Shown here: piece by piece, positions 1-55,520 of the stretch
How positions within the stretch are numbered: the stretch's first letter is position 1
Layout: each line of letters starts with the position of its first letter
Assembly (NCBI RefSeq): GCF_001591405.1
Contig: NZ_BCUV01000006.1
Location: 496,001 to 560,000, forward strand
Source of the DNA: Janibacter terrae NBRC 107853
GTDB taxonomy: Bacteria; Actinomycetota; Actinomycetes; Actinomycetales; Dermatophilaceae
Direction of reading: 5' to 3'
DNA: 64,000 nucleotides
The notes under the pieces: generated by a model
What the model saw: the letters and a program-made list of their open reading frames with translations, nothing else
What the model was told of the DNA's origin: nothing
Database searches by the model: none
Translations under genes and position numbers: made by a program

Positions 1-530
1 AGTCCTATATTCCAGAGCGGCCGGACTTGCGGGGCCGCGCGGAGGCGATCCTCGCGGAGACCGCGCGGCGCTTCGGCAAGGCCGTCGTGCCGCTCGACCA
101 GATCACTCAGATGGCCGCTGGTGGCGTGTGGCACCACTCGGCGTACTACCTGCGCAAGCAGGCCGAGTGGGAGGCGCTCCGCGCCAGCGGCGCCGAGGGC
201 GGCACGAGCTCAGGTGGCCTGAACGGCCGCACCGCCGAAGGCGGCACGAGCTCCGGGTCGCTCAACGGCCGGGGCGCGTTCGTGCGCTCCCCCAGCAAGC
301 ACCTGGGCCGCACCTACGTCACACCCGCGCAGTCCTACGGCGGCGCGTCCGGCCGGTCGAGCAACTCGCAGGTCATCGCGCGTCTGCACCCCCAGGACGC
401 GGCTCTCATCGCGCGAGTGGCGCGACGCCCGGTCGAGATCGAGATCGACGGCGTGAAGCTGGCCCGCGCCAATTCGGTTGCGAACCGCCGGCACGGCTCG
501 GCACGGACAGGAGCACTCAATGGCGGATGA
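1..530 (+). CDS. Tape measure protein, C-terminal part (copy A, cut by window edge)
   Basis: The reading frame is open from the first bases (codons in phase from position 3) and matches the last 176 residues of the complete tape measure protein at 41413-45027. The truncation is only the window edge. The C-terminal tail is rich in Gly, Ser and Thr with a short repeated Gly-Gly-Thr-Ser-Ser segment. Confidence 0.95.
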   Translation, partial: SYIPERPDLRGRAEAILAETARRFGKAVVPLDQITQMAAGGVWHHSAYYLRKQAEWEALRASGAEGGTSSGGLNGRTAEGGTSSGSLNGRGAFVRSPSKHLGRTYVTPAQSYGGASGRSSNSQVIARLHPQDAALIARVARRPVEIEIDGVKLARANSVANRRHGSARTGALNGG

Positions 531-1368
531 CCTGTGCGGCCTCTACTGGATCGGGCACGTCGGAAGCCTGCACCCGATCCTGCTGCACGTCGGCGAGCAC
601 AAGCGCACGTCGCAGCCGCGGGTGAGCCTGTCGGAGACCCTGTCTGGGCGTGTCCTGGCGCAGCTGTCGCCGCGTCGCACCGCCCCGCGGTCGTGGTCGA
701 TCGGTGGCCCGGACGAGCTGGTGAAGGACGTCGCGGCCCTCGGTGAGGTGCTCGCGGGTCTGCGCCCGCCGTATGTGTGGGTGGAGCCGTGGGCGCAGGT
801 GACGAACCTTCTGACTCCGCGCTCGAGCCTGTGGCAGGACACGGTGGCCGCGCAGTTCTCGGTGTCGATGGCTGGCCGCTACCCACTGGATGGTGGCGGG
901 TACGCGGCGGCGACGGTGGTGCAGTCGAACGTCGCGCAGTCGATGATCTCGGGTGCGGCCCCGGTCGTGCAGGGGCTGCCGGTGACGGTCGCCGCGTGGG
1001 TGGCTGGCACGTCCGCGCGCGTCAACGGACAGTTCCTCGACTCCAACCGGGTCGCGATCAGTCAGTTCGCGGGCAACACCGTGACCGGCGTGGACGTGCT
1101 GCGCCGGTCGCACAAGACGTTCACGCCCGCCGAGGTGCCGTCCAACGCTGTCGCGGTCCGCCTCTTCACGACCAACGCCAGCGTCGCGGCGCGCGCGCAG
1201 GTGACGTGGACGTCCGGGCCCGTGGACTGGTCCATCGGCGGTGGCGCGTCCACGGTCGTCGTCACCGACGAGTCCCTGGACACGACGTGGGCTGTCCCTG
1301 ACCCGGGCTTCGCGCACGGTCGCCGCGCGTCCGTCGCGTTCACCGTGACCGAGATCGGCGCTCCCTGA
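520..1368 (+). CDS. Distal tail-type minor tail protein (copy A)
   Basis: Identical to 45017-45865, where the full description is given. It starts 11 bases inside the end of the tape measure gene and is preceded by an ACAGGAG ribosome site. Confidence 0.75.
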   Translation: MADDLCGLYWIGHVGSLHPILLHVGEHKRTSQPRVSLSETLSGRVLAQLSPRRTAPRSWSIGGPDELVKDVAALGEVLAGLRPPYVWVEPWAQVTNLLTPRSSLWQDTVAAQFSVSMAGRYPLDGGGYAAATVVQSNVAQSMISGAAPVVQGLPVTVAAWVAGTSARVNGQFLDSNRVAISQFAGNTVTGVDVLRRSHKTFTPAEVPSNAVAVRLFTTNASVAARAQVTWTSGPVDWSIGGGASTVVVTDESLDTTWAVPDPGFAHGRRASVAFTVTEIGAP

Positions 1369-3572
1369 TGCGGCCCGGGAACTGGCCGGACCGCGACGTC
1401 CGGCACTTCGATGTGGTCGCCCGCTTCAACGGCGGCCCTCCCGTGCTCGTGGAGTCGATGCGCCTGTCGCACTCGATGATCGACGGGCACCCCTCGGGTC
1501 ACGGCGGCGGCATGTCCACGTCGGGGTCCATCACGATCTTGCGGGACGCGGTCGCCTCGTCGCTCAGCCCCGAGCCGTGGGGCCGCCAGGGCGACTTCCC
1601 CCCGCGCTCGGGCACCCCGGTCACCATCGACATCACCGACGGCGAGGGCCAGTCGTGGCGCCGCCTGACCGGGATCACGGAGCGCGCCACCGGGTCCTTC
1701 TCGTCGCGCTCGGTGACGATCCCCGTGCGGGACCAGGTCGACAAGCTGGGCGTGGTCGTCTCGTCCGGTCCGATGCTGGACATTCACCCGCCGCTGGCCG
1801 ACGGCGGCGAGTACCGCCGCCCCCGCGCGTGCGCTGAGTGGCTGCTGGACCGGGCCGCCCGCGCCGCCGGGTGGTACGCCACCCCGCAGATGCGGTGGGA
1901 AGCGATCTTCTCCGCACCGATGGTCGGGTCGCTGTGGCCCGAGCGCGGGTCGCTGCAGTCGTCCACCAACTCGGCGGGCGACGGCGGGCCCACGATCGCG
2001 TGGACGTCGCAGTGGCAGGCCATCAAGGACGCCTCCGCGATCTGGGACACGACGGGCACGACGAGCATCCCCGAGCTGACGATGGCGCTGCACACGCAGG
2101 CGGCGGGCACGTCGATGCGAGTGCAGGTCACGTCGGAGGCTGGCTACGGCGCCTACGTGCTGACGGACTCGGGCGGATCGATCCGTTTCGGGACGGTCGA
2201 CGGCGGCACGATCACGGAGCGCGGCACCCTCGCGAAGGGGGCGGCGACCCGGGTGGGGCTGCGGGTGACGACCACGGCCGGCGGCACGATGGGCATCACG
2301 GTCCGCACGGACACGGGCGCTCAGGCCACGGCCACGCCCCCGTCTGACCCGACCTACGCGTCACTGACCTTCTCGCGGGTGCGGGTGTACGGGACCGGCA
2401 TCCTCGGGTGGGTGCAGGTGCTCGCCAACCCGGGCACGCAGTGGATGCTCCTGGACGTCCCGACGTCGCCGACCAACGCGGTGCAGCGCGTCGGTGAGAC
2501 CCCTGAGCGGTGGGACGCGGCCCCGCAGGTGTGGGACTCGACCGCCGTGGACCTGCTCTCGTCGTGGGCGCGCGCGACGTGCGGGCAGGTGTGGATCGAC
2601 ATGGACGGCCGCCTGCAGATCGCGGCCCGTGGCGTGCTCGAGGCGGTCGGGTCCGTGCTGACCCTGTCCTCTCGTGACGCGCTGCTGGACGTGGACTGGG
2701 AGGACGACGGGATGCACGTCGCCCGGCAGGTGCGCGTGCTGCACCAGCACCCGAAGATCCAGCGCGGCCGGTACGCGCAGTGGCGGGTGTGGCAGGGACG
2801 CGCGCAGACCCTCTCCGCGGGCGAGGAGGACATCACGACGGTGGAGATCCCCGACGACGAGGACTGGATCTCGCTCGACGCGTCCCCGCACCGGGTGACG
2901 ACCACGACGAACCGCCTCGACATCCTCCGCAACACCGTCATCGGCGGGATGCAGATCAGCGACACGGCCGACTCGACCAACGTGCCCGCCGCGTTCCTGG
3001 ACACGTCCATGACGGTCGACGGGCCGCGCGCGTGGGAGGTGCGCGTCGCCCCGTGGGCCACGCTCGACCCGTCGCAGTCGGTCGTGACGATGGTCCCCGA
3101 GGAACTGACCAGCGTCCCCAAGCGCTACCGCGGCCTCCCGCTGCCGGACGTGAAGGCGAAGGCGCGGGTCTACCGCCTCGAGCGGGAGACCATCGTCGAC
3201 ACGGTGCCCGGCGACTACGCGACGGTGCAGATGTACGAGCACGACGCGGGCTGGTGGGTGCAGAACGGGGACCGCCGCACCCTCCTGCACACCTTCCTGC
3301 GCTACCAGATGGGTGAGCAGCAGCCGTGCCCCACGGACGTCTCGGTCGCCCCGGACCTGCGCGTGGAGCTCGGCGACGTCATCACCATCGAGGACGCCGA
3401 CCGGACCGGGGTGCGCGTGGTGATGCTCACCACCGGCATCGACGAGGACTTCTCTGTGGGCTCGGGCCTGTCGATGAGCCTGTCCGGCCGCGAGATCGGC
3501 TGGGCGCTGCCGTCCGCACTGACACCTGACGACGCCGGGCACACCCCCGCATGGACCTTGGAGGCTTCCTGA
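1368..3572 (+). CDS. Large minor tail protein, probable tail hub (copy A)
   Basis: Identical to 45865-48069 (see there). Its start shares one base with the stop of the preceding gene (TGATG). Confidence 0.75.
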   Translation: MRPGNWPDRDVRHFDVVARFNGGPPVLVESMRLSHSMIDGHPSGHGGGMSTSGSITILRDAVASSLSPEPWGRQGDFPPRSGTPVTIDITDGEGQSWRRLTGITERATGSFSSRSVTIPVRDQVDKLGVVVSSGPMLDIHPPLADGGEYRRPRACAEWLLDRAARAAGWYATPQMRWEAIFSAPMVGSLWPERGSLQSSTNSAGDGGPTIAWTSQWQAIKDASAIWDTTGTTSIPELTMALHTQAAGTSMRVQVTSEAGYGAYVLTDSGGSIRFGTVDGGTITERGTLAKGAATRVGLRVTTTAGGTMGITVRTDTGAQATATPPSDPTYASLTFSRVRVYGTGILGWVQVLANPGTQWMLLDVPTSPTNAVQRVGETPERWDAAPQVWDSTAVDLLSSWARATCGQVWIDMDGRLQIAARGVLEAVGSVLTLSSRDALLDVDWEDDGMHVARQVRVLHQHPKIQRGRYAQWRVWQGRAQTLSAGEEDITTVEIPDDEDWISLDASPHRVTTTTNRLDILRNTVIGGMQISDTADSTNVPAAFLDTSMTVDGPRAWEVRVAPWATLDPSQSVVTMVPEELTSVPKRYRGLPLPDVKAKARVYRLERETIVDTVPGDYATVQMYEHDAGWWVQNGDRRTLLHTFLRYQMGEQQPCPTDVSVAPDLRVELGDVITIEDADRTGVRVVMLTTGIDEDFSVGSGLSMSLSGREIGWALPSALTPDDAGHTPAWTLEAS

Positions 3573-5509
3573 TGGCAGACCGGACCACACCGCAGGGCCT
3601 GCAGGTCTTCGACTCCGGCGACCCGGGCGCGGTCATCAACAATGGGATGGCCTCGGCTGACTCGACGGACGCGGCGATCGGTCGTGTCGCGCAGACCGCT
3701 GGCGAGGCCAAGGCTGCCGCGGTGCCCGTCGCGTCGATCTCCGGGGACAACGCCGACACCTGGACGTCGATGGGCTCGCGCATGGCGTGGGCCGTGCACG
3801 GCGTCGCCAACACCCCCCGGGCGGGAGTGTCGTGGCGCATCGACACCACGGTGCTCGCGTCGTCGGCGATCCTGCAGGTCGCGACCGCCATCGGTCTCGC
3901 GAGCGAGCAGTGGTCTCGCTTCAAGGGGTCGGTGTCGTGGACGGCATGGTCCCGCATGGATCAGGGCGCGGCCGTGGAGGCCCTGCAGCCGCAGATCGCG
4001 GCCGCGGGGTCTGGCGGCTCCCCTGCCGGGTGGCGGCGGGTGCCGCTGGCTCTGACGGTCGGGCAGGGCGCGGCCACGCAGACGGGCACCACGGGTGGGG
4101 TGCGCTTGCCCGTGCACCCCGGCGTGGCCGTCTCCCGCTGGCGCCTGCACGCGACCAACGTCAACCCGCGCTTCGGCTCCCCCTCCGGCACGGTCACCGT
4201 GTCTGGCGTGTGGGTCGGCGCTGCGGGTGCGACCGCCGGCACGTGGGCGTCCGCACCGACGAAGGTCTCCAACGGCAGCGCGGGCGCATCGGCCGGCGAG
4301 TGGGTCTCGGAGTGGATCAGCACCCCCATCCCCGCGTCGTCGTCCACGCTCATCGGCGCCGCATGGTCCGTCTCGGGCACGTCCACGGTCCAGCAGACCT
4401 TCGCGGTCGGGCACACCACGACGCAGACCGACGCGGGCAACAACGCCGCCGCCGTCACCGCGTCGTCGTCGGTGCCGCTGCACTGGTGGGTGGAGGCCGA
4501 GGTGCCCGCCGCAACGCCCACCCTCGCCGTCATCGGCGACTCCATCGCCTCCGGTGTCGGCTCCACCCGTGGCGTGGCCGACTCGTGGCCCGCGATCTGG
4601 GGACGCACCAACGGCGTCCTCGTCTCGCACTACAGCGCGTCCGGTGATGCGCTGTCCGCGTGGGGTGACTCGACCGCCTACAAGTGGTCGATGTACCCCG
4701 GCGCGGGCAGGCCCGACGCGGCCGTCCTCGTCCTCGGCTCCAACGACATCTTCGGCGGCGCGACTCTCGCGACGCTGCAGACCAACGCGGGCAAGGTCGC
4801 CGACGCCGCCAAGCTCGTGTTGGGCGCGCCGCTGCACCTGGGCACTATCACCCCCCGCGATGGCGTCACCGGGGCGATGGAGACCGTGCGCCGCGACTAC
4901 AACACGTGGCTGCGCGGGCGTCCTCTCGCGGCCCGGTCGGTGTCCGAGGTCAGCGCGGCCGTGTCCACGGATGACGAGACGCTCACGCCCGCGATGACGT
5001 CCGACGGCATCCACCTGACCACGGCCGGGTCGACGGCCGCCGCAGGGACCGTGTCGAAGGCGACCGTCATGGCACCCGCCCCGACCGTCGCGGCCGCGCA
5101 GGTCAGCGACGCCACGACCACGGGCCGTGCCGTGATGACCGCCACGGACGCCGCCGCCGCACGCACAGCGATAGGCGCGGCCGAGCAGCGCGACACCGGC
5201 TGGCGCGCCCTGACCGGCGGCACGAAGGTGCAAAGGGTCGGCTCGACCGTCTTCGTCCAGTACTACGGGAGCCTGCCCGCTGGCACCGGGGACATCGACG
5301 CCGACACCCTCCCCGTCGGTTTCCGGCCCAAGTGGCACGCCGCCGCCGCCTACCACATCGGCCCGACGTCGCTCGCCAAGGCCCTCGTCCTCACCACCGG
5401 GCAGGTCCGCTTCTACGGCATCACCGCCTCGGGAGCCTTCGTCACCCTGACCGTCGCCTACGCGACCCCCGACGCGTGGCCCACCACCCTGCCCGGCACC
5501 CCAGCCTGA
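3572..5509 (+). CDS. Tail protein with SGNH hydrolase domain (copy A)
   Basis: Identical to 48069-50006 (see there). The start at 3572 was chosen because a GGAGG lies upstream and it overlaps the preceding stop (TGATG); a start seven codons earlier lacks such a site. Confidence 0.85.
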   Translation: MADRTTPQGLQVFDSGDPGAVINNGMASADSTDAAIGRVAQTAGEAKAAAVPVASISGDNADTWTSMGSRMAWAVHGVANTPRAGVSWRIDTTVLASSAILQVATAIGLASEQWSRFKGSVSWTAWSRMDQGAAVEALQPQIAAAGSGGSPAGWRRVPLALTVGQGAATQTGTTGGVRLPVHPGVAVSRWRLHATNVNPRFGSPSGTVTVSGVWVGAAGATAGTWASAPTKVSNGSAGASAGEWVSEWISTPIPASSSTLIGAAWSVSGTSTVQQTFAVGHTTTQTDAGNNAAAVTASSSVPLHWWVEAEVPAATPTLAVIGDSIASGVGSTRGVADSWPAIWGRTNGVLVSHYSASGDALSAWGDSTAYKWSMYPGAGRPDAAVLVLGSNDIFGGATLATLQTNAGKVADAAKLVLGAPLHLGTITPRDGVTGAMETVRRDYNTWLRGRPLAARSVSEVSAAVSTDDETLTPAMTSDGIHLTTAGSTAAAGTVSKATVMAPAPTVAAAQVSDATTTGRAVMTATDAAAARTAIGAAEQRDTGWRALTGGTKVQRVGSTVFVQYYGSLPAGTGDIDADTLPVGFRPKWHAAAAYHIGPTSLAKALVLTTGQVRFYGITASGAFVTLTVAYATPDAWPTTLPGTPA

Positions 5510-5525
5510 CCCGAGAGGACACCCC

Positions 5526-5714
5526 ATGCCCGACCTGACCGCCCTCACCGACGACGACCTCGACACCCTCCGCCGCGACGTGCTCACCGAACAGGAACGC
5601 CGCGCCCGCGTGACCGCCGCACCCGAGCAGCTCGCCGACCTGACCCGCTCAGCCGTCGAGTCCGGCGCCGACCCCGACACCCTCCGCGCCGCCGTCGAAG
5701 ACGCCCTGACCTGA
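5526..5714 (+). CDS. Small acidic hypothetical protein (copy A)
   Basis: Identical to 50023-50211. It encodes 62 residues, charged and helical, with no recognised family. Confidence 0.6.
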   Translation: MPDLTALTDDDLDTLRRDVLTEQERRARVTAAPEQLADLTRSAVESGADPDTLRAAVEDALT

Positions 5715-5719
5715 CAGGA

Positions 5720-5749
5720 CCGCCCCGAGTCGTGCAGGACCCGGGGCGG
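5720..5749 (+). terminator. Terminator-like hairpin after the tail genes (copy A)
   Basis: CCGCCCCG (5720-5727) pairs with CGGGGCGG (5742-5749) across a 14-base loop. It lies just after the 62-residue gene and before the lysis genes. There is no clear T-tract, so termination is uncertain. Confidence 0.4.
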
Positions 5750-5843
5750 CCAAGCACCACCCTCCCACCCCACCCAGGCCGCCGCCTGAGCATTCCTGCT
5801 CACGGCGCCTGCTGCACCAGGAGCGCCGACGATGAGGAGCGAC

Positions 5844-6314
5844 ATGCCCAACCGCATCTATCGGGGCTCCCACCCGCCACGGAAGATCGACCACGTCCTG
5901 GCACACCCCTACGAGGTCCTCATGGCCGCCGCTGGCCTGATCGCGTGCGCGGCCCTCCTAGCAGCCGAGCTCGGGGCGCCCATCACCATCTCGCCGACCA
6001 TGCGGGACCTGCCCTCGACCGTCGCGTGGCTCGTCGGCGCGTCCGGCGTCGTCGGCAACACGCTCGTCATCGCCGGCGTCTTCGACGACGGTGAGGACCT
6101 GATGCGCGGCTGGATGATCGAGCGCGTCGGGCTCGTCGCCGCCATCACCTCGTGGGGCGCCTACTCGCTCGCCGTCGCCGTCATCCACCCCGGCGCCGCG
6201 ATCTCCTACGCCGTCACCCTCTTCGTCGCCGGCGCGCACGCCGTGAGATTCGTGGCGACCCTGCGCGAGGAGTCCACGACCCGCACCGCCATCCGCACCC
6301 ACGGAGACCTGTGA
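5844..6314 (+). CDS. Four-helix membrane protein (copy A)
   Basis: Identical to 50341-50811 (see there). Confidence 0.7.
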   Translation: MPNRIYRGSHPPRKIDHVLAHPYEVLMAAAGLIACAALLAAELGAPITISPTMRDLPSTVAWLVGASGVVGNTLVIAGVFDDGEDLMRGWMIERVGLVAAITSWGAYSLAVAVIHPGAAISYAVTLFVAGAHAVRFVATLREESTTRTAIRTHGDL

Positions 6315-6727
6315 TGGACGGCGGGCAGATCACCGCCCTGACCGGGCTCCTCGTCGCTCTCGGCTCCGGCGCGTCATGGCTGATCGTGCGCTGGGACAAG
6401 CGCCGCTCCGCCGTGCCCCGCAGCCAGGCCGCGACCGCGCAGGCCGCGCAGTCCATGACCGACGCCCTCGACATCGTGCAGCGCTCTCTCGGTGAGGACC
6501 TGACCCGGGTGCGACGCGAGGCCGACGAGGACCGCAGGAAGCACCGTGCCGACCGCGACGCCGACCGGGCCCGACTCGACGCACTCGACACCGAGGTGCA
6601 GGCCCTGCGACGCGAGGTCCGCACCATCCGCACCGCGTGGGCCGACTGGTACCAAGGCCTCGTCGACCGCTGGCACATCCACCGGGAGCAGCCCGCGCCG
6701 CCCATGCCTCCCACGCTCGACGCCTGA
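6314..6727 (+). CDS. Membrane-anchored coiled-coil protein (copy A)
   Basis: Identical to 50811-51224 (see there). Confidence 0.7.
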   Translation: MDGGQITALTGLLVALGSGASWLIVRWDKRRSAVPRSQAATAQAAQSMTDALDIVQRSLGEDLTRVRREADEDRRKHRADRDADRARLDALDTEVQALRREVRTIRTAWADWYQGLVDRWHIHREQPAPPMPPTLDA

Positions 6728-6796
6728 CCCCCGTTCGCCCTTCGCCCCCGCGCCATCCCGGTCCGGGGGTTTCGTCTTGCCCGAAGGAGTCCACCC

Positions 6797-7684
6797 ATGA
6801 GCGTCACCGTCGACCGCACCACGCAGCGGTACTCGTCCGGGGAGCAGGACGCGCCACGCATGGTCCTGCTGCACACCACCGAAGGGTGGGGCTGGCCGTC
6901 CTACGGCGGCGGCGGGTCCGCGCCGCACGCCACGATCAAGCCGCTGCCCGGCGTCGGCATCGAGGTCCGCGAGCACATCCCCTTCGGCCAGTTCGGCAAG
7001 GCCCTGGCGAACCGCGCGGGCGGGGTGCAAACCAACACCACCGGCGTCCTGCAGTTCGAGCTCATGGGCACCTGCGACGAGTCCCGCAGCGGCCTGTACT
7101 TCTGGCCCAACGCCGACGACCAGGTGCTCGCCGCCCTCGCCGACTACCTGCGACCGATCATGCGCCAGTACGGCATCCCGCACACCTCCGACGTGACGTG
7201 GAAGGACTACAACGCCGGCCGCATCCCCTCGTCCTACGGGCTGTCCAACGGGGTGCGGATGTCCCACACCAGGTGGATGACCTTCCGCGGCATCTGCGGC
7301 CACCAGCACGCGCCCGAGAACGACCACGGCGACCCCGGCAACTTCCCCATCGACACCCTGCTCCGCCACCTCGGCGGCACGACCACCACCACCTCACAGG
7401 AAGACGACACCGACATGGCCTCCCTCTCCGACATCGCCGCCGCCGTCCGCGACGGCATCACCGCCCACTGGTCCGAGTCCGTCAGCATCCCCGGCGAGAC
7501 CAAGCCCCGCACCCGCAACCAGATCCTCATCTGGGGCTACACCCGCGCCGGCGCCGCGGCCCGCGACTCGCAGAAGGCACTCGCGGTCGCTCGCGCCGTC
7601 GCCCGCCGGCAGGGCCTCACCGACGACCAACTCGACGACATCGAGGACAAGGTCGACCGGCTCATCGACCGGACCGAGTCGTGA
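6797..7684 (+). CDS. Endolysin, N-acetylmuramoyl-L-alanine amidase (copy A)
   Basis: Identical to 51294-52181 (see there). Confidence 0.85.
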   Translation: MSVTVDRTTQRYSSGEQDAPRMVLLHTTEGWGWPSYGGGGSAPHATIKPLPGVGIEVREHIPFGQFGKALANRAGGVQTNTTGVLQFELMGTCDESRSGLYFWPNADDQVLAALADYLRPIMRQYGIPHTSDVTWKDYNAGRIPSSYGLSNGVRMSHTRWMTFRGICGHQHAPENDHGDPGNFPIDTLLRHLGGTTTTTSQEDDTDMASLSDIAAAVRDGITAHWSESVSIPGETKPRTRNQILIWGYTRAGAAARDSQKALAVARAVARRQGLTDDQLDDIEDKVDRLIDRTES

Positions 7685-7839
7685 AGCGCGGCCTCTTCGA
7701 CCACGTCGCCGACTACCTCTCGGTGCCGGACCACGACGCCGTGATCGTCCAGGCCCTCGGCCTGCTCGCCGCCGGCGCCTTCCTCGCGCTGTACGGCGCC
7801 CTGCGCCTCCTGCCCAAGAAGATCGGAGCCTCCGCATGA
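7681..7839 (+). CDS. Small single-helix membrane protein, holin candidate (copy A)
   Basis: Identical to 52178-52336 (see there). The GTG start overlaps the endolysin stop by four bases. Confidence 0.6.
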   Translation: MKRGLFDHVADYLSVPDHDAVIVQALGLLAAGAFLALYGALRLLPKKIGASA

Positions 7840-8405
7840 ACGCCTACGAGCTCAAGGCCCTGCAGCGCCGCGGCATCACCGTCTCAGCGCTCGGCTGCGT
7901 CATGCTCGACGTCACCAGCCCGCCCATCAGCCGTCTCCTGCCCGCGACGTGGCTCTACTCCTCGCCGCACCCGGACCGGCGATGGATCAGCGGCGCGCAG
8001 GACGAAGGGCACGTCACCCTGCTCTACGGCCTCCTCGACAACGCCCACACCATCCGCGAGGACATCGACGAGGCCCTCGACGGGTGGGATCCGGGCACGA
8101 TCGAGACCGCCCACGTCGGCGTCTTCCCCTCCCCCTTCGACGACGAGCCCTACTCCTGCATCGTCGCCCACCTCGCACTCACCGAGCAGCTGCGCGACGC
8201 GCACGCCCGCCTCTCGCTCCTGCCGCACATCGACACCCACCCCGAGTACAAGCCCCACGTCACCCTCGCCTACGTGCGCCGCGAGTACGAGGGGGACGCG
8301 GTCCGGCTCATCGAGCAGGAACTCGGCTGCGTCAAGGGCGGCCTCGACTTCGAGCCCGTCGCCCTCAACTACGGATACCCGCCCAAGATCGGAGCCACGT
8401 CATGA
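7836..8405 (+). CDS. 2H phosphoesterase, Acb1-like (copy A)
   Basis: Identical to 52333-52902 (see there). Confidence 0.7.
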   Translation: MNAYELKALQRRGITVSALGCVMLDVTSPPISRLLPATWLYSSPHPDRRWISGAQDEGHVTLLYGLLDNAHTIREDIDEALDGWDPGTIETAHVGVFPSPFDDEPYSCIVAHLALTEQLRDAHARLSLLPHIDTHPEYKPHVTLAYVRREYEGDAVRLIEQELGCVKGGLDFEPVALNYGYPPKIGATS

Positions 8406-8704
8406 CCGCCCCCACTCGCGCCTCCCGGCACGCCCTCAAGACCGACGCCCGCAACCGGGCGTGGCGCACCCTCCTGCAGGGGCTCGCCACCGACGTCCTC
8501 GTTGCGCTCGCCGCCGCGCTCCTCGCGTGGCTCCCCGACGCCGACATCACCAGCGGTGAGGCGTGGGCCGTCATCGGCGTCACCCTCGCCAAGACCGCAC
8601 TCACCACGGCCGCGTCGTGGATCATGCGAGCCAAGCTCGACGGGTCCGCCCTGCCCACGCCGCTGCCGCCGGCCGACCCGGGCGAGCCCGACGACACACC
8701 CTGA
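8402..8704 (+). CDS. Two-helix membrane protein, holin candidate (copy A)
   Basis: Identical to 52899-53201 (see there). Confidence 0.6.
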   Translation: MTAPTRASRHALKTDARNRAWRTLLQGLATDVLVALAAALLAWLPDADITSGEAWAVIGVTLAKTALTTAASWIMRAKLDGSALPTPLPPADPGEPDDTP

Positions 8705-8723
8705 CACCGGTGCCCTACGCTGT

Positions 8724-8755
8724 GCCGCGACCCTGCCCTTCGAACGGGTCGCGGC
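8724..8755. other. Hairpin 1 of a triple hairpin region (copy A)
   Basis: GCCGCGACCC (8724-8733) pairs perfectly with GGGTCGCGGC (8746-8755) across a 12-base loop. It is the first of three strong hairpins in the 212 bases between the holin candidate and the next gene. Confidence 0.7.
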
Positions 8756-8788
8756 GGTCGAGCACAGGCAGAGGGGACCCGACCGCCA

Positions 8789-8830
8789 GCAGCACCCCCG
8801 TCGCCTCCCCCCCGATGGCGGGGGTGCTGC
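8789..8830. other. Hairpin 2 of a triple hairpin region (copy A)
   Basis: GCAGCACCCCCG (8789-8800) pairs perfectly with CGGGGGTGCTGC (8819-8830) across an 18-base loop. Confidence 0.7.
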
Positions 8831-8848
8831 GCCCCTACTCACACCACT

Positions 8849-8885
8849 GAGCGCCCCCTTCGCCACCACGGTGAAGGGGGCGCTC
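8849..8885 (+). terminator. Strong terminator-like hairpin 3 (copy A)
   Basis: GAGCGCCCCCTTC (8849-8861) pairs perfectly with GAAGGGGGCGCTC (8873-8885), and the stem can extend inward by three more pairs. It is followed by TTGTCG. This is the likely end of the late transcript, although the T-run is short. Confidence 0.65.
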
Positions 8886-8916
8886 TTGTCGTACCTGCGT
8901 GCCACGATCCCGCCTC

Positions 8917-9138: not shown

Positions 9139-9142
9139 CCGC

Positions 9143-48069: not shown

Positions 48070-50006
48070 TGGCAGACCGGACCACACCGCAGGGCCTGCA
48101 GGTCTTCGACTCCGGCGACCCGGGCGCGGTCATCAACAATGGGATGGCCTCGGCTGACTCGACGGACGCGGCGATCGGTCGTGTCGCGCAGACCGCTGGC
48201 GAGGCCAAGGCTGCCGCGGTGCCCGTCGCGTCGATCTCCGGGGACAACGCCGACACCTGGACGTCGATGGGCTCGCGCATGGCGTGGGCCGTGCACGGCG
48301 TCGCCAACACCCCCCGGGCGGGAGTGTCGTGGCGCATCGACACCACGGTGCTCGCGTCGTCGGCGATCCTGCAGGTCGCGACCGCCATCGGTCTCGCGAG
48401 CGAGCAGTGGTCTCGCTTCAAGGGGTCGGTGTCGTGGACGGCATGGTCCCGCATGGATCAGGGCGCGGCCGTGGAGGCCCTGCAGCCGCAGATCGCGGCC
48501 GCGGGGTCTGGCGGCTCCCCTGCCGGGTGGCGGCGGGTGCCGCTGGCTCTGACGGTCGGGCAGGGCGCGGCCACGCAGACGGGCACCACGGGTGGGGTGC
48601 GCTTGCCCGTGCACCCCGGCGTGGCCGTCTCCCGCTGGCGCCTGCACGCGACCAACGTCAACCCGCGCTTCGGCTCCCCCTCCGGCACGGTCACCGTGTC
48701 TGGCGTGTGGGTCGGCGCTGCGGGTGCGACCGCCGGCACGTGGGCGTCCGCACCGACGAAGGTCTCCAACGGCAGCGCGGGCGCATCGGCCGGCGAGTGG
48801 GTCTCGGAGTGGATCAGCACCCCCATCCCCGCGTCGTCGTCCACGCTCATCGGCGCCGCATGGTCCGTCTCGGGCACGTCCACGGTCCAGCAGACCTTCG
48901 CGGTCGGGCACACCACGACGCAGACCGACGCGGGCAACAACGCCGCCGCCGTCACCGCGTCGTCGTCGGTGCCGCTGCACTGGTGGGTGGAGGCCGAGGT
49001 GCCCGCCGCAACGCCCACCCTCGCCGTCATCGGCGACTCCATCGCCTCCGGTGTCGGCTCCACCCGTGGCGTGGCCGACTCGTGGCCCGCGATCTGGGGA
49101 CGCACCAACGGCGTCCTCGTCTCGCACTACAGCGCGTCCGGTGATGCGCTGTCCGCGTGGGGTGACTCGACCGCCTACAAGTGGTCGATGTACCCCGGCG
49201 CGGGCAGGCCCGACGCGGCCGTCCTCGTCCTCGGCTCCAACGACATCTTCGGCGGCGCGACTCTCGCGACGCTGCAGACCAACGCGGGCAAGGTCGCCGA
49301 CGCCGCCAAGCTCGTGTTGGGCGCGCCGCTGCACCTGGGCACTATCACCCCCCGCGATGGCGTCACCGGGGCGATGGAGACCGTGCGCCGCGACTACAAC
49401 ACGTGGCTGCGCGGGCGTCCTCTCGCGGCCCGGTCGGTGTCCGAGGTCAGCGCGGCCGTGTCCACGGATGACGAGACGCTCACGCCCGCGATGACGTCCG
49501 ACGGCATCCACCTGACCACGGCCGGGTCGACGGCCGCCGCAGGGACCGTGTCGAAGGCGACCGTCATGGCACCCGCCCCGACCGTCGCGGCCGCGCAGGT
49601 CAGCGACGCCACGACCACGGGCCGTGCCGTGATGACCGCCACGGACGCCGCCGCCGCACGCACAGCGATAGGCGCGGCCGAGCAGCGCGACACCGGCTGG
49701 CGCGCCCTGACCGGCGGCACGAAGGTGCAAAGGGTCGGCTCGACCGTCTTCGTCCAGTACTACGGGAGCCTGCCCGCTGGCACCGGGGACATCGACGCCG
49801 ACACCCTCCCCGTCGGTTTCCGGCCCAAGTGGCACGCCGCCGCCGCCTACCACATCGGCCCGACGTCGCTCGCCAAGGCCCTCGTCCTCACCACCGGGCA
49901 GGTCCGCTTCTACGGCATCACCGCCTCGGGAGCCTTCGTCACCCTGACCGTCGCCTACGCGACCCCCGACGCGTGGCCCACCACCCTGCCCGGCACCCCA
50001 GCCTGA
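48069..50006 (+). CDS. Tail protein with SGNH hydrolase domain (copy B)
   Basis: A 645-residue protein. The N-terminal 300 residues are a structural, strand-rich tail part. An SGNH/GDSL hydrolase domain follows: Gly-Asp-Ser-Ile (Ser324) as block I, Gly-Ser-Asn-Asp (Asn391) as block III, and Asp478-Gly-Ile-His481 as the catalytic Asp/His block. A C-terminal strand-rich domain may bind the host. Such virion esterases remove acetyl or acyl groups from surface glycans, so the protein probably helps adsorption to or penetration of the cell envelope. The substrate is unknown. ATG at 48069 overlaps the preceding stop. Confidence 0.88.
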   Translation: MADRTTPQGLQVFDSGDPGAVINNGMASADSTDAAIGRVAQTAGEAKAAAVPVASISGDNADTWTSMGSRMAWAVHGVANTPRAGVSWRIDTTVLASSAILQVATAIGLASEQWSRFKGSVSWTAWSRMDQGAAVEALQPQIAAAGSGGSPAGWRRVPLALTVGQGAATQTGTTGGVRLPVHPGVAVSRWRLHATNVNPRFGSPSGTVTVSGVWVGAAGATAGTWASAPTKVSNGSAGASAGEWVSEWISTPIPASSSTLIGAAWSVSGTSTVQQTFAVGHTTTQTDAGNNAAAVTASSSVPLHWWVEAEVPAATPTLAVIGDSIASGVGSTRGVADSWPAIWGRTNGVLVSHYSASGDALSAWGDSTAYKWSMYPGAGRPDAAVLVLGSNDIFGGATLATLQTNAGKVADAAKLVLGAPLHLGTITPRDGVTGAMETVRRDYNTWLRGRPLAARSVSEVSAAVSTDDETLTPAMTSDGIHLTTAGSTAAAGTVSKATVMAPAPTVAAAQVSDATTTGRAVMTATDAAAARTAIGAAEQRDTGWRALTGGTKVQRVGSTVFVQYYGSLPAGTGDIDADTLPVGFRPKWHAAAAYHIGPTSLAKALVLTTGQVRFYGITASGAFVTLTVAYATPDAWPTTLPGTPA

Positions 50007-50022
50007 CCCGAGAGGACACCCC

Positions 50023-50211
50023 ATGCCCGACCTGACCGCCCTCACCGACGACGACCTCGACACCCTCCGCCGCGACGTGCTCACCGAACAGGAACGCCGC
50101 GCCCGCGTGACCGCCGCACCCGAGCAGCTCGCCGACCTGACCCGCTCAGCCGTCGAGTCCGGCGCCGACCCCGACACCCTCCGCGCCGCCGTCGAAGACG
50201 CCCTGACCTGA
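50023..50211 (+). CDS. Small acidic hypothetical protein (copy B)
   Basis: Sixty-two residues with a good start region after the tail gene (GAGAGGACACCCC then ATG). Asp/Glu/Arg-rich and helical. It could be a small tail accessory protein; nothing recognised. Confidence 0.6.
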   Translation: MPDLTALTDDDLDTLRRDVLTEQERRARVTAAPEQLADLTRSAVESGADPDTLRAAVEDALT

Positions 50212-50216
50212 CAGGA

Positions 50217-50246
50217 CCGCCCCGAGTCGTGCAGGACCCGGGGCGG
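50217..50246 (+). terminator. Terminator-like hairpin after the tail genes (copy B)
   Basis: Same hairpin as 5720-5749: CCGCCCCG with CGGGGCGG across 14 bases. No clear T-tract. Confidence 0.4.
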
Positions 50247-50340
50247 CCAAGCACCACCCTCCCACCCCACCCAGGCCGCCGCCTGAGCATTCCTGCTCAC
50301 GGCGCCTGCTGCACCAGGAGCGCCGACGATGAGGAGCGAC

Positions 50341-50811
50341 ATGCCCAACCGCATCTATCGGGGCTCCCACCCGCCACGGAAGATCGACCACGTCCTGGCA
50401 CACCCCTACGAGGTCCTCATGGCCGCCGCTGGCCTGATCGCGTGCGCGGCCCTCCTAGCAGCCGAGCTCGGGGCGCCCATCACCATCTCGCCGACCATGC
50501 GGGACCTGCCCTCGACCGTCGCGTGGCTCGTCGGCGCGTCCGGCGTCGTCGGCAACACGCTCGTCATCGCCGGCGTCTTCGACGACGGTGAGGACCTGAT
50601 GCGCGGCTGGATGATCGAGCGCGTCGGGCTCGTCGCCGCCATCACCTCGTGGGGCGCCTACTCGCTCGCCGTCGCCGTCATCCACCCCGGCGCCGCGATC
50701 TCCTACGCCGTCACCCTCTTCGTCGCCGGCGCGCACGCCGTGAGATTCGTGGCGACCCTGCGCGAGGAGTCCACGACCCGCACCGCCATCCGCACCCACG
50801 GAGACCTGTGA
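50341..50811 (+). CDS. Four-helix membrane protein in the lysis region (copy B)
   Basis: A 156-residue protein with four predicted transmembrane helices (about residues 26-46, 57-78, 95-114 and 119-140). The ATG at 50341 is preferred because AGGAG lies at good spacing; an ATG four codons earlier is also in frame. Its place before the endolysin suggests a holin, antiholin or a membrane moron. Confidence 0.7.
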   Translation: MPNRIYRGSHPPRKIDHVLAHPYEVLMAAAGLIACAALLAAELGAPITISPTMRDLPSTVAWLVGASGVVGNTLVIAGVFDDGEDLMRGWMIERVGLVAAITSWGAYSLAVAVIHPGAAISYAVTLFVAGAHAVRFVATLREESTTRTAIRTHGDL

Positions 50812-51224
50812 TGGACGGCGGGCAGATCACCGCCCTGACCGGGCTCCTCGTCGCTCTCGGCTCCGGCGCGTCATGGCTGATCGTGCGCTGGGACAAGCGC
50901 CGCTCCGCCGTGCCCCGCAGCCAGGCCGCGACCGCGCAGGCCGCGCAGTCCATGACCGACGCCCTCGACATCGTGCAGCGCTCTCTCGGTGAGGACCTGA
51001 CCCGGGTGCGACGCGAGGCCGACGAGGACCGCAGGAAGCACCGTGCCGACCGCGACGCCGACCGGGCCCGACTCGACGCACTCGACACCGAGGTGCAGGC
51101 CCTGCGACGCGAGGTCCGCACCATCCGCACCGCGTGGGCCGACTGGTACCAAGGCCTCGTCGACCGCTGGCACATCCACCGGGAGCAGCCCGCGCCGCCC
51201 ATGCCTCCCACGCTCGACGCCTGA
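50811..51224 (+). CDS. Membrane-anchored coiled-coil protein (copy B)
   Basis: A 137-residue protein: one N-terminal transmembrane helix (about residues 6-25), then a long charged coiled coil (Arg/Asp/Glu-rich, about 45-110) and a Pro-rich end. Its start overlaps the preceding stop (GTGATGG). The shape fits a lysis accessory protein; spanins are not expected in hosts without an outer membrane. Confidence 0.7.
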   Translation: MDGGQITALTGLLVALGSGASWLIVRWDKRRSAVPRSQAATAQAAQSMTDALDIVQRSLGEDLTRVRREADEDRRKHRADRDADRARLDALDTEVQALRREVRTIRTAWADWYQGLVDRWHIHREQPAPPMPPTLDA

Positions 51225-51293
51225 CCCCCGTTCGCCCTTCGCCCCCGCGCCATCCCGGTCCGGGGGTTTCGTCTTGCCCGAAGGAGTCCACCC

Positions 51294-52181
51294 ATGAGCG
51301 TCACCGTCGACCGCACCACGCAGCGGTACTCGTCCGGGGAGCAGGACGCGCCACGCATGGTCCTGCTGCACACCACCGAAGGGTGGGGCTGGCCGTCCTA
51401 CGGCGGCGGCGGGTCCGCGCCGCACGCCACGATCAAGCCGCTGCCCGGCGTCGGCATCGAGGTCCGCGAGCACATCCCCTTCGGCCAGTTCGGCAAGGCC
51501 CTGGCGAACCGCGCGGGCGGGGTGCAAACCAACACCACCGGCGTCCTGCAGTTCGAGCTCATGGGCACCTGCGACGAGTCCCGCAGCGGCCTGTACTTCT
51601 GGCCCAACGCCGACGACCAGGTGCTCGCCGCCCTCGCCGACTACCTGCGACCGATCATGCGCCAGTACGGCATCCCGCACACCTCCGACGTGACGTGGAA
51701 GGACTACAACGCCGGCCGCATCCCCTCGTCCTACGGGCTGTCCAACGGGGTGCGGATGTCCCACACCAGGTGGATGACCTTCCGCGGCATCTGCGGCCAC
51801 CAGCACGCGCCCGAGAACGACCACGGCGACCCCGGCAACTTCCCCATCGACACCCTGCTCCGCCACCTCGGCGGCACGACCACCACCACCTCACAGGAAG
51901 ACGACACCGACATGGCCTCCCTCTCCGACATCGCCGCCGCCGTCCGCGACGGCATCACCGCCCACTGGTCCGAGTCCGTCAGCATCCCCGGCGAGACCAA
52001 GCCCCGCACCCGCAACCAGATCCTCATCTGGGGCTACACCCGCGCCGGCGCCGCGGCCCGCGACTCGCAGAAGGCACTCGCGGTCGCTCGCGCCGTCGCC
52101 CGCCGGCAGGGCCTCACCGACGACCAACTCGACGACATCGAGGACAAGGTCGACCGGCTCATCGACCGGACCGAGTCGTGA
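51294..52181 (+). CDS. Endolysin, N-acetylmuramoyl-L-alanine amidase (copy B)
   Basis: A 295-residue cell-wall hydrolase of the amidase_2/PGRP type. His26 in Leu-Leu-His-Thr-Thr-Glu is the first zinc ligand; the second ligand region is Gly-His-Gln-His-Ala-Pro-Glu-Asn with Asp-Pro-Gly (about 172-187). A Thr-rich linker near 197-203 leads to a helical C-terminal domain with Ser/Asp, probably for wall binding. It cuts the bond between muramic acid and L-alanine to release progeny. Confidence 0.88.
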   Translation: MSVTVDRTTQRYSSGEQDAPRMVLLHTTEGWGWPSYGGGGSAPHATIKPLPGVGIEVREHIPFGQFGKALANRAGGVQTNTTGVLQFELMGTCDESRSGLYFWPNADDQVLAALADYLRPIMRQYGIPHTSDVTWKDYNAGRIPSSYGLSNGVRMSHTRWMTFRGICGHQHAPENDHGDPGNFPIDTLLRHLGGTTTTTSQEDDTDMASLSDIAAAVRDGITAHWSESVSIPGETKPRTRNQILIWGYTRAGAAARDSQKALAVARAVARRQGLTDDQLDDIEDKVDRLIDRTES

Positions 52182-52336
52182 AGCGCGGCCTCTTCGACCA
52201 CGTCGCCGACTACCTCTCGGTGCCGGACCACGACGCCGTGATCGTCCAGGCCCTCGGCCTGCTCGCCGCCGGCGCCTTCCTCGCGCTGTACGGCGCCCTG
52301 CGCCTCCTGCCCAAGAAGATCGGAGCCTCCGCATGA
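52178..52336 (+). CDS. Small single-helix membrane protein, holin candidate (copy B)
   Basis: Fifty-two residues from a GTG overlapping the endolysin stop (GTGA). One long hydrophobic helix (about residues 20-43) and a basic tail. Position next to the endolysin makes it a holin candidate. Confidence 0.6.
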   Translation: MKRGLFDHVADYLSVPDHDAVIVQALGLLAAGAFLALYGALRLLPKKIGASA

Positions 52337-52902
52337 ACGCCTACGAGCTCAAGGCCCTGCAGCGCCGCGGCATCACCGTCTCAGCGCTCGGCTGCGTCAT
52401 GCTCGACGTCACCAGCCCGCCCATCAGCCGTCTCCTGCCCGCGACGTGGCTCTACTCCTCGCCGCACCCGGACCGGCGATGGATCAGCGGCGCGCAGGAC
52501 GAAGGGCACGTCACCCTGCTCTACGGCCTCCTCGACAACGCCCACACCATCCGCGAGGACATCGACGAGGCCCTCGACGGGTGGGATCCGGGCACGATCG
52601 AGACCGCCCACGTCGGCGTCTTCCCCTCCCCCTTCGACGACGAGCCCTACTCCTGCATCGTCGCCCACCTCGCACTCACCGAGCAGCTGCGCGACGCGCA
52701 CGCCCGCCTCTCGCTCCTGCCGCACATCGACACCCACCCCGAGTACAAGCCCCACGTCACCCTCGCCTACGTGCGCCGCGAGTACGAGGGGGACGCGGTC
52801 CGGCTCATCGAGCAGGAACTCGGCTGCGTCAAGGGCGGCCTCGACTTCGAGCCCGTCGCCCTCAACTACGGATACCCGCCCAAGATCGGAGCCACGTCAT
52901 GA
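52333..52902 (+). CDS. 2H phosphoesterase, Acb1-like anti-CBASS candidate (copy B)
   Basis: A 189-residue protein with the two HxT motifs that define 2H phosphoesterases: His59-Val-Thr61 in Gly-His-Val-Thr-Leu-Leu-Tyr-Gly and His141-Val-Thr143 in Pro-His-Val-Thr-Leu-Ala-Tyr-Val. The flanking pattern (Leu-Pro-His-Ile-Asp-Thr-His-Pro-Glu-Tyr-Lys before the second motif) resembles phage Acb1-type enzymes, which degrade cyclic nucleotide signals of CBASS immunity. RNA-processing 2H enzymes share the fold, so activity must be tested. It sits between two holin candidates with ATGA overlaps on both sides. Confidence 0.7.
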   Translation: MNAYELKALQRRGITVSALGCVMLDVTSPPISRLLPATWLYSSPHPDRRWISGAQDEGHVTLLYGLLDNAHTIREDIDEALDGWDPGTIETAHVGVFPSPFDDEPYSCIVAHLALTEQLRDAHARLSLLPHIDTHPEYKPHVTLAYVRREYEGDAVRLIEQELGCVKGGLDFEPVALNYGYPPKIGATS

Positions 52903-53201
52903 CCGCCCCCACTCGCGCCTCCCGGCACGCCCTCAAGACCGACGCCCGCAACCGGGCGTGGCGCACCCTCCTGCAGGGGCTCGCCACCGACGTCCTCGTT
53001 GCGCTCGCCGCCGCGCTCCTCGCGTGGCTCCCCGACGCCGACATCACCAGCGGTGAGGCGTGGGCCGTCATCGGCGTCACCCTCGCCAAGACCGCACTCA
53101 CCACGGCCGCGTCGTGGATCATGCGAGCCAAGCTCGACGGGTCCGCCCTGCCCACGCCGCTGCCGCCGGCCGACCCGGGCGAGCCCGACGACACACCCTG
53201 A
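52899..53201 (+). CDS. Two-helix membrane protein, holin candidate (copy B)
   Basis: A 100-residue protein with a basic start, two predicted helices (about residues 27-45 and 57-76) and a Pro/Asp-rich tail, the typical plan of a small class II holin. It overlaps the phosphoesterase stop and is last in the lysis operon before three hairpins. Confidence 0.65.
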   Translation: MTAPTRASRHALKTDARNRAWRTLLQGLATDVLVALAAALLAWLPDADITSGEAWAVIGVTLAKTALTTAASWIMRAKLDGSALPTPLPPADPGEPDDTP

Positions 53202-53220
53202 CACCGGTGCCCTACGCTGT

Positions 53221-53252
53221 GCCGCGACCCTGCCCTTCGAACGGGTCGCGGC
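53221..53252. other. Hairpin 1 of a triple hairpin region (copy B)
   Basis: Same as 8724-8755: 10-bp perfect stem GCCGCGACCC/GGGTCGCGGC. Confidence 0.7.
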
Positions 53253-53285
53253 GGTCGAGCACAGGCAGAGGGGACCCGACCGCCA

Positions 53286-53327
53286 GCAGCACCCCCGTCG
53301 CCTCCCCCCCGATGGCGGGGGTGCTGC
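53286..53327. other. Hairpin 2 of a triple hairpin region (copy B)
   Basis: Same as 8789-8830: 12-bp perfect stem GCAGCACCCCCG/CGGGGGTGCTGC. Confidence 0.7.
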
Positions 53328-53345
53328 GCCCCTACTCACACCACT

Positions 53346-53382
53346 GAGCGCCCCCTTCGCCACCACGGTGAAGGGGGCGCTC
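53346..53382 (+). terminator. Strong terminator-like hairpin 3 (copy B)
   Basis: Same as 8849-8885: 13-bp perfect stem followed by TTGTCG. Probable end of the late transcript. Confidence 0.65.
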
Positions 53383-53413
53383 TTGTCGTACCTGCGTGCC
53401 ACGATCCCGCCTC

Positions 53414-53635
53414 ATGTGGCGCTACACCCTCCGCGACCTCCACCCCGGCGACGACCCCGAAGCCTGGGCCTGCGAGCTCGCCGACGAAGGGTGGCGCCTG
53501 TGGATCCCCGGCAACACCGGCGCCGACACGGTCATCAACGGCCGCGCGGTGCGCCGCTACAGCCTCCGCAAGTGGACCGGACCCGGCGACCCGCCACCCA
53601 ACGACTGGGACTGTCACCGCGCAGTGGCATCCTGA
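53414..53635 (+). CDS. Small hypothetical protein (copy B)
   Basis: Seventy-three residues from an ATG at 53414, tryptophan-rich (Trp-Ala-Cys-Glu-Leu, Gly-Trp-Arg-Leu-Trp-Ile), possibly a small beta fold. It sits between the triple hairpin and the secreted nuclease. Confidence 0.6.
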   Translation: MWRYTLRDLHPGDDPEAWACELADEGWRLWIPGNTGADTVINGRAVRRYSLRKWTGPGDPPPNDWDCHRAVAS

Positions 53636-53639
53636 CCGC

Positions 53640-54467
53640 ATGACGAAGGGGATCGTGGGGGCGGCAGTCGCGATGCTCGCGCTCAGCGGGTGCGCCGTCC
53701 CGGCCGGGAGCGAGCCCGAGGCGATCACCACCACGGTCACCGCCACGCACGAAGAAGTCGTGGTCGTCGTGGAAGAGCCGCCCGTCACCAAGACCGAGAC
53801 GGTCACCGCCACGGCCACACCCGAGCCCTCGAGGACCAGCAACACGCCGAAGCCCACCACCACACCGTCGGGCACGTCCGCCACGCTGACCGTGCTCGCG
53901 CAGCTGCCGGTGAAGGGCCGGGCCCCGAAGACCAGGTACGACCGCGCCATGTTCGGGCAAGCCTGGTCCGACGACGTCACCGAGCAGTACGGCCACAACG
54001 GCTGCGACACCCGCAACGACATCCTCCGGCGCGACCTCACCGACGTCGTCATCAAGCCCGGCACCAACGACTGCGTGGCCCTCTCCGGCACCCTCCGCGA
54101 CCCCTACACCGGCCGCAGTATCCCCTTCGTCCGTGGCCAAGCCACCTCGAGCGCGGTGCAGATCGACCACGTTGTCGCGCTGTCCAACGCCTGGCAGACC
54201 GGCGCGCAACAGCTCACGCCGGAGCAGCGGCAGAACTTCGCGAACGACCCCCTGAACCTGCTCGCGGTCGACGGGCCGACGAACGCGCAGAAGGGCGACG
54301 GGGACGCCGCGACCTGGCTCCCACCCCGCAAGCCCTACCGGTGCGACTATGCCGCCCGCCAGGTGGCCGTGAAGAAGAAGCACAACCTGTGGGTCACCCC
54401 GCCCGAAAAGGAAGCTCTGAACCGGATACTCTCCGGCTGTGGGGGCACGCCACTGCCGACCCGCTAG
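53640..54467 (+). CDS. Secreted HNH-family (DUF1524-like) nuclease lipoprotein (copy B)
   Basis: A 275-residue protein. A signal peptide ends in the lipobox Leu-Ser-Gly-Cys (Cys18), then a Thr-rich linker (about 25-80) leads to a nuclease domain of the DUF1524 type: Asp-His-Val-Val-Ala-Leu (about 176-181), Asn-Asp-Pro-Leu-Asn-Leu and Asn-Ala-Gln-Lys-Gly-Asp. Such secreted HNH nucleases degrade DNA outside the cell. It is encoded by the prophage next to an Excalibur protein, so in lysogens it might degrade environmental or incoming phage DNA. Expression in lysogens is assumed from its place at the att end. Confidence 0.8.
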   Translation: MTKGIVGAAVAMLALSGCAVPAGSEPEAITTTVTATHEEVVVVVEEPPVTKTETVTATATPEPSRTSNTPKPTTTPSGTSATLTVLAQLPVKGRAPKTRYDRAMFGQAWSDDVTEQYGHNGCDTRNDILRRDLTDVVIKPGTNDCVALSGTLRDPYTGRSIPFVRGQATSSAVQIDHVVALSNAWQTGAQQLTPEQRQNFANDPLNLLAVDGPTNAQKGDGDAATWLPPRKPYRCDYAARQVAVKKKHNLWVTPPEKEALNRILSGCGGTPLPTR

Positions 54468-54488
54468 GCATCTTCGGGGAGGAAGATC

Positions 54489-55028
54489 ATGGCTCGCATC
54501 ACCACGACCCAGCGTCGTCGCAGCAAGGCCCAGAACAAGCTCCTGGCGATCGGCGGCGGCATCGTCGGGTTCGTCATCCTGATCTGCTGCTGCTTCGGCG
54601 CCATCGGCAGTGTGTTCGGCGACGAGGAGGACACGGACCAGCGCCGGCCGCTGGTGTCGACCAGCACGACCACGACGACCCGCACCTCGAGCACGACGAC
54701 CAGGTCGACGACGACGAGCACGACCACCACGACGAAGAGCTCGAGCTCGTCCAAGTCGTCGACGCAGCCCAGCCGCACGACGTCGAGCTCACCGAAGCCG
54801 AAGCCGACCTCGTCGTCGACCGCCCGGGCGCCGCAGCCCCTGACGACCCAAGCCCCGAAGACGACCACGCAGGCGCCCCCGCCGCCTCCGCCGGCGGCAC
54901 CGCCGGCCGCCTACTACGACAACTGCAGCGCCGCGAAGGCCGCGGGCGCCGCGCCCGTCTACCGTGGCCAGCCCGGCTACGGCGACCACCTGGACCGTGA
55001 CGGCGACGGCGTGGGCTGCGAGTCCTAG
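54489..55028 (+). CDS. Membrane-anchored Excalibur-domain protein (copy B)
   Basis: A 179-residue protein: one transmembrane helix (about residues 20-42, with three adjacent cysteines), a long Thr/Ser-rich linker (about 55-115), a Pro-rich segment, and a C-terminal Excalibur calcium-binding domain with Asp-Arg-Asp-Gly-Asp-Gly-Val-Gly-Cys-Glu. Excalibur domains accompany extracellular nucleases in many Gram-positive bacteria. A GGAGGAAG site precedes the ATG. It lies 21 bases after the nuclease gene, so the two probably form one transcript. Confidence 0.85.
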   Translation: MARITTTQRRRSKAQNKLLAIGGGIVGFVILICCCFGAIGSVFGDEEDTDQRRPLVSTSTTTTTRTSSTTTRSTTTSTTTTTKSSSSSKSSTQPSRTTSSSPKPKPTSSSTARAPQPLTTQAPKTTTQAPPPPPPAAPPAAYYDNCSAAKAAGAAPVYRGQPGYGDHLDRDGDGVGCES

Positions 55029-55038
55029 AGTTACGGTC

Positions 55039-55407
55039 ATGGCGCGCTACCCCTCCGGCATCACACCCCTGCTCGGCGAGCACGTGGACGACGTCCGAGT
55101 CCGGGCCGCGCGGATGGCTCTCGAGATGGACGCTCATCCCGTCGGGGCGACCGCGCCGTGCATGAACCCGGAGTGCGCCGGCCCCGTCGACTACGTCGGC
55201 ACCGGCCATCTCACGCTCTACTGCTCCACCACCTGCCGCAACCGCACCTCCTACCTGCGGACCCTCATCACCGACGAGCTCGAGCTCCTCGAGGAAACCC
55301 TGGACGAAACCAAGCACAAGCAGGGCATTCCCCGCCAGGAGTACCTTCAGCGGGCCCGGATGCTCCGCTGGTGGGCAGCACGCCTGACCCCGATCACCGA
55401 ACGCTGA
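55039..55407 (+). CDS. Small zinc-finger protein next to the att site (copy B)
   Basis: A 122-residue protein with Cys-Met-Asn-Pro-Glu-Cys...Tyr-Cys-Ser-Thr-Thr-Cys-Arg-Asn-Arg (about residues 41-69), a four-cysteine finger as in TRASH/FCS-type fingers, and a helical C-terminus. It ends about 70 bp before the phage-host junction. Function unknown. Confidence 0.65.
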   Translation: MARYPSGITPLLGEHVDDVRVRAARMALEMDAHPVGATAPCMNPECAGPVDYVGTGHLTLYCSTTCRNRTSYLRTLITDELELLEETLDETKHKQGIPRQEYLQRARMLRWWAARLTPITER

Positions 55408-55426
55408 CGCCAGCCGCCACGGCGCC

Positions 55427-55520
55427 GGCCACGCCCCTCCTCGACGTCAGTACAACCCCTGTGGAACTATCGCCCCGCTGACCGCGCTCAGGTGCGACAT
55501 GCCGACGAGGAGCATGTCGT
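55427..55520. other. Right attachment site attR (phage/host junction)
   Basis: Up to 55476 the sequence equals the attP left arm at 10930-10979; from 55477 it continues as comEC on the minus strand. The shared bases at the point of change are TCGCCCC. The host side encodes the conserved Ser-Gly-Ala stretch of ComEC, so attB lay inside that motif. Limits approximate. Confidence 0.85.

Follow-up and report, generated by a model that had tools for sequence, protein, structure and literature searches.

A contig that carries the same prophage twice in a row raises the question of whether the chromosome does so too. The question arises in Janibacter terrae NBRC 107853 (GCF_001591405.1; 11 contigs, 3.58 Mb), in which the window, the whole 64,000-bp stretch analyzed here, covers positions 496,001-560,000 of contig NZ_BCUV01000006.1 (C6). 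The window holds the right-hand part of a head-to-tail tandem of a 44,497-bp phage unit, set in the host gene comEC. The tandem is real in the deposited sequence, but this does not establish an exact tandem in the chromosome. A single prophage accompanied by excised or free phage DNA, with the doubling arising as an assembly loop, is the explanation that we consider probable.

Structure of the repeat and its insertion site

By direct sequence comparison, window positions 1-10979 and 44498-55476 are the same base for base at an offset of 44,497. When sequence beyond the window is included, C6 462,480-506,979 equals 506,977-551,476, giving 44,500 identical bp without a single-base difference, which is the 44,497-bp unit plus a 3-bp attachment core, CCC. 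Chance is ruled out, as the longest exact direct repeat of the 892,834-bp contig after this one measures 74 bp. The elements follow in the order host, attL, phage, intact attP, phage, attR, host. All three junctions are present in the assembly, with a full phage attachment site (attP) between two complete phage copies and host DNA, the comEC halves, on either outer side. This confirms that the tandem repeat exists in the deposited sequence and extends beyond the window. An initial annotation had described the one-unit offset, the 44,497-bp head-to-tail unit and the intact attP between the copies, and each of these held. The attL that it proposed to look for upstream of the window is there (core CCC at C6 462,480-462,482). 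It was right about the repeat but started the feature at position 1, which is only the window edge; the left copy starts 33,521 bases further left.

The phage encodes a large serine integrase, as the same annotation had stated, with a phrog_95 match and Resolvase, Recombinase and zinc-ribbon domains that all score above the curated cut-offs. Its start codon lies 71 bases after the attP core. A short 3-bp core, an attP adjoining the integrase gene and a gene for a directionality factor, predicted from its sequence, are as in large serine integrase systems.

When the host flanks were rejoined across the core, an uninterrupted comEC frame of 817 residues was obtained, running through the HLxAVSGSN motif. 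We therefore place the insertion site in this conserved motif. A search of 58 genomes with the Competence ComEC model gave a match in 57, of which 55 had one match each. Besides the present genome, the set included one draft with comEC split between two contigs and one genome without a match. The match in the present genome is cut and covers only 29-263 of the 270 model positions; comEC is thus intact in relatives and split here.

Resolving power of the assembly

An exact prophage tandem on a contig should be taken for a dilysogen only if repeats of that size are resolved in the same assembly, and the ribosomal RNA (rRNA) operons offer a quick and general check of this. Two 16S genes are present in four of five single-contig genomes from the same genus, against one in the present genome. 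In all four two-operon relatives, the second operon is flanked upstream by sequence matching the 3' end of contig C9 and downstream by sequence matching the 5' start of contig C2. The last 20 bases of C9 are those of the operon region of contig C3 some 300 bases ahead of the 16S gene there. By alignment to a relative, no more than about 100 bases separate the start of C2 from the far edge of the operon. These matches indicate that the second rRNA operon (~5.5 kb) is missing and that the contigs stop at its edges. Two other contig-end pairs, with 77-79% GC, overlap by 16 and 40 bp only, and such short overlaps would fit short reads. Because the second operon was not assembled and C6 contains no other exact direct repeat longer than 74 bp, we infer that the 44.5-kb repeat was not resolved by linkage either.

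We also compared k-mer sets for the two alternatives, a dimer on the one hand and one prophage with a circle on the other. The nine k values tested between 31 and 44,501 all gave the same set for both, and at 44,502 the sets differed. The contig therefore shows three junctions, not copy number. Given the unassembled second operon and the identical k-mer sets, the assembly cannot support the dimer reading, nor does the presence of two copies in the contig count as evidence of a dimer in the chromosome. The initial annotation had left the choice between a dimer and an assembly artefact open. The layout that it described stands; as for the choice, the operon and the k-mers leave an exact chromosomal tandem not established. 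Among the matches listed in the literature on prophage tandems and misassembly, judged by titles and abstract starts, there was no assembly-artefact paper. A tandem contig is still useful, because its attP suggests either an active prophage or a dimer.

One prophage or two

In the explanation that we favor, the phage would sit once in the host comEC, inserted by its own serine integrase. The sequenced DNA would also have contained the same phage in quantity, whether excised and circular, concatemeric or packaged, with excision brought about by the integrase and a recombination directionality factor (RDF) acting on attL and attR. Reads from attL, attR and attP would then form a loop in the assembly graph, which the assembler would have walked twice. 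Assemblers may walk such graph loops. We favor this reading because the copies are identical, the second rRNA operon is missing and two related comEC prophages are in a single state. In Serinicoccus and Haloechinothrix, the two prophages whose comEC halves could both be placed, about 40 kb separates the halves, a single integrase match was seen in each, and the stretches examined contained no exact 60-base repeat. In a survey of 396 genomes, 17 had a match, and a doubled match on the same contig was seen in no other genome. A further survey with PF04860 gave matches in 18 of 396 genomes, three of which had more than one match, always on separate contigs; this model does not match the portal protein of the present phage, so the survey is uninformative on its family.

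Several points weigh against a single prophage with free phage DNA. The free DNA is presumptive, and to come through assembly the attP junction must have been abundant, for which a true dimer offers a simple account. Inside C3 the assembler did traverse one rRNA operon, and with it one 5.5-kb repeat, whether rightly or wrongly. The empty site (attB) is also not in the assembly, in which only its two halves match at 100% (the 596-bp contig C1 is all N and could not contribute to this search). This lowers the odds slightly, as attB is expected if excision is frequent, and it counts in favor of a true chromosomal dilysogen, attL-phage-attP-phage-attR, whose exactly predicted layout the sequence has. 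Such a dilysogen would arise when a dimeric circle integrates via one attP, or when a second circle undergoes homologous recombination with the resident prophage. With the integrase alone it would be stable; with the RDF present, an 89-kb dimer would be excised, and RecA-dependent exchange could remove one copy. Lambda dilysogens of this layout are described in an excerpt of PMC4669245. In addition, a complete E. coli chromosome record shows, between ybhC and ybhB, two lambda-like copies joined at an attP; as deposited, the left copy carries inserted marker genes and its integrase is annotated as incomplete. In complete E. coli genomes such a joined region is rare, however: of the 2284 with any match, a total that includes genomes matching one arm only, 5 have a lambda attP region joined over 80% or more of the query. 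As the present assembly also lacks the second copy of a 5.5-kb repeat, we regard a chromosomal dilysogen as possible but doubtful.

Two further routes to the same contig carry much less weight. The first is that another phage inserted site-specifically into attL or attR of the resident one, which has been proposed, beside homologous recombination, for the tandem of two different prophages in Mycobacterium abscessus T36 (excerpt of PMC9934374). Serine integrases normally do not recombine other site pairs, according to the opening of the abstract of PMC3783163, which agrees with the annotation's remark that they do not recombine attP with attL or attR. Identical copies with a full attP in the middle are also the outcome of simpler routes, and we consider this insertion very improbable here. 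Assemblers can also join contig ends wrongly, and a pure misjoin would mean that no attP junction existed in the sample at all. This is hardly credible, since the join falls with single-base precision on a 3-bp core beside the integrase gene, as site-specific recombination predicts. One prophage with free phage DNA remains our preferred explanation.

Integrases beside broken comEC in other actinobacteria

The integrases that target comEC may matter more than the tandem and are the part worth following. At five of the 22 other integrase loci examined, the integrase (35-59% identity) lies beside a comEC broken at the same motif. These are MT835531 (55%), Serinicoccus sediminis (59%, the closest in a named genome), Microbacterium esteraromaticum (41%), Haloechinothrix aidingensis (38%; contig C10 of that genome, 141-181 kb) and a Corynebacterium metagenome-assembled genome (35%). 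In Haloechinothrix it is the N-terminal half of comEC that the integrase faces, contrary to the other cases, and the second comEC half of Microbacterium was not found in the 76 kb examined. No adjoining broken comEC was seen at the other 17 loci, namely Actinomycetospora (39%), five viral contigs (29-37%) and 11 relatives (26-36%) examined with only about 1.5 kb of flank. Integrases of Gordonia phages are 44-45% identical and therefore closer than three of the five comEC-site cases.

Our first comEC comparison used a query cut at the motif, which forces alignment ends, and it was repeated with an uncut query. With the latter, homology ended within about 5 residues of the motif at our own attL, at the Serinicoccus, Microbacterium and Corynebacterium loci, and at the Serinicoccus second half and the Haloechinothrix C-terminal half. 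The alignment ran on for about 20-60 residues at our own attR, MT835531 and the Haloechinothrix N-terminal half; the attR edge is exact from the repeat identity, and the other two edges were read by eye. A stretch upstream of the integrase gene in MT835531, compared with attP, had no convincing likeness to it and proved to be comEC. Separately, the record MT835531.1, labelled Bacteriophage sp. and from human faeces, contains several kb of host-like chromosome at ~14.3-19.96 kb, including the comEC fragment beside the integrase.

We built a tree of 23 integrases, which includes one added Gordonia phage and leaves out L128 because its match looked the same as that of L129. The tree groups the six comEC cases beyond shuffled labels (2 changes against a shuffled mean of 5.5, with 0 of 500 shuffles as low). 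It does not recover them as one clade, and one clade is not rejected either (AU p 0.134). To us the chances are evenly balanced that an actinophage serine-integrase lineage is specialized on the VSG motif of comEC. In such a lineage, lysogeny would break the uptake channel across several genera and guard the prophage against loss by transformation, and excision would restore the gene. If true, the shared target in several actinobacterial genera would bear on whether phages gain by silencing natural transformation. Integrases with mapped attachment sites are also usable as tools.

Gene content of the phage unit

Judged by its genes, the 44,497-bp unit is a complete-looking temperate actinophage (Table 1). 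The PHROGs search covered 30 of the 60 genes that a simple caller lists for one unit. Downstream of the integrase, the repressor is probably the lysogeny repressor, the small helix-turn-helix regulator is perhaps Cro, and the Gp3-like protein is the likely excision partner of the integrase. The search of viral contigs with the integrase gave one distant locus (37%), and no second assembly of the phage was found there.

Table 1 Features of the window, with positions counted from its first base
Feature	Position	Strand	Evidence or remark
Phage copy 1, right-hand 10,976 bases	1..10976	+	Copy starts at C6 462,480, outside the window
attP core CCC between the copies	10977..10979	.	Exact repeat edge
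Phage copy 2, one 44,497-bp unit counted from the core	10977..55473	+	
Large serine integrase, 466 aa	11051..12451	+	phrog_95 E 2.9e-86; PF00239, PF07508, PF13408
Transcriptional repressor	15289..15816	-	phrog_12831
Small helix-turn-helix regulator	16086..16343	+	13 families matched, best E 2.3e-07
Phage exonuclease	18071..19006	+	phrog_298
Gp3-like RDF	19009..20091	+	PF18897 E 7.6e-41
Replicative helicase/primase-like protein	25082..26626	+	phrog_19, phrog_695
Terminase large subunit	29832..31355	+	phrog_38; 63.5% identity over 91% to Arthrobacter phage TripleJ
Portal protein	31375..32910	+	phrog_10963
Major capsid protein	36013..37128	+	phrog_133, phrog_4523; matches TripleJ 5898-6977, annotated as major capsid protein
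Tape measure protein	41413..45027	+	phrog_13339
Endolysin-like protein	51294..52181 (copy at 6797-7684)	+	phrog_12609 E 3.7e-07, scored on the identical 6797-7684 copy
attR core at the host junction	55474..55476	.	Exact repeat edge
Host comEC, N-terminal part, cut by the prophage	55477..56286	-	C-terminal part left of C6 462,480
comEA-like gene	56291..57052	-	TIGR01259 E 1.1e-24, 86.8 bits, below the cut-off of 152.35

Two further phage proteins were recorded. The one at 7836-8405 and 52333-52902 has a 2'-5' RNA ligase-like domain above the cut-off and a weak match, below the cut-off, to the anti-CBASS protein Acb1. The one near the right end, at 9143-9970 and 53640-54467, has a GmrSD restriction endonuclease C-terminal domain. 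Padloc gave no match for ten phage proteins at E 0.001.

Comparison with known systems

In its head genes the phage resembles Arthrobacter phage TripleJ (NC_049470): the order of these genes is collinear, and the terminases share 63.5% identity. Identity is 30-52% for the eight remaining protein matches, in a comparison over the first 21,407 of the 45,507 bases of TripleJ.

Tandem prophages are a real and known kind of arrangement. The order attL-phage-attP-phage-attR is that of the lambda tandem dilysogens, as given in the available part of PMC4669245, and of the complete E. coli chromosome record. Lambda differs in using a tyrosine integrase, and the linkage in PMC4669245 was, by the same excerpt, built and checked genetically, whereas here it rests on the assembly. 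In M. abscessus, the prophages prophiT36-2a and prophiT36-2b likewise lie in a row at one attB in an actinobacterium. According to the available text of PMC9934374, these are two different phages with a hybrid middle site, in contrast to the identical copies and full attP seen here. Tandem prophages in E. coli are also treated in PMC8112680, and a non-prophage duplication in PMC12054119.

The literature matches listed, seen as excerpts, included no serine-integrase site in comEC, only comYC prophages and other comEC insertions, both pneumococcal (PMC4774983, PMC12637031). As far as these excerpts go, the likeness is that a gene of the DNA-uptake machinery is broken. The present case differs from the pneumococcal insertions in that a serine integrase uses the conserved comEC motif as its attB, and does so in actinobacteria.

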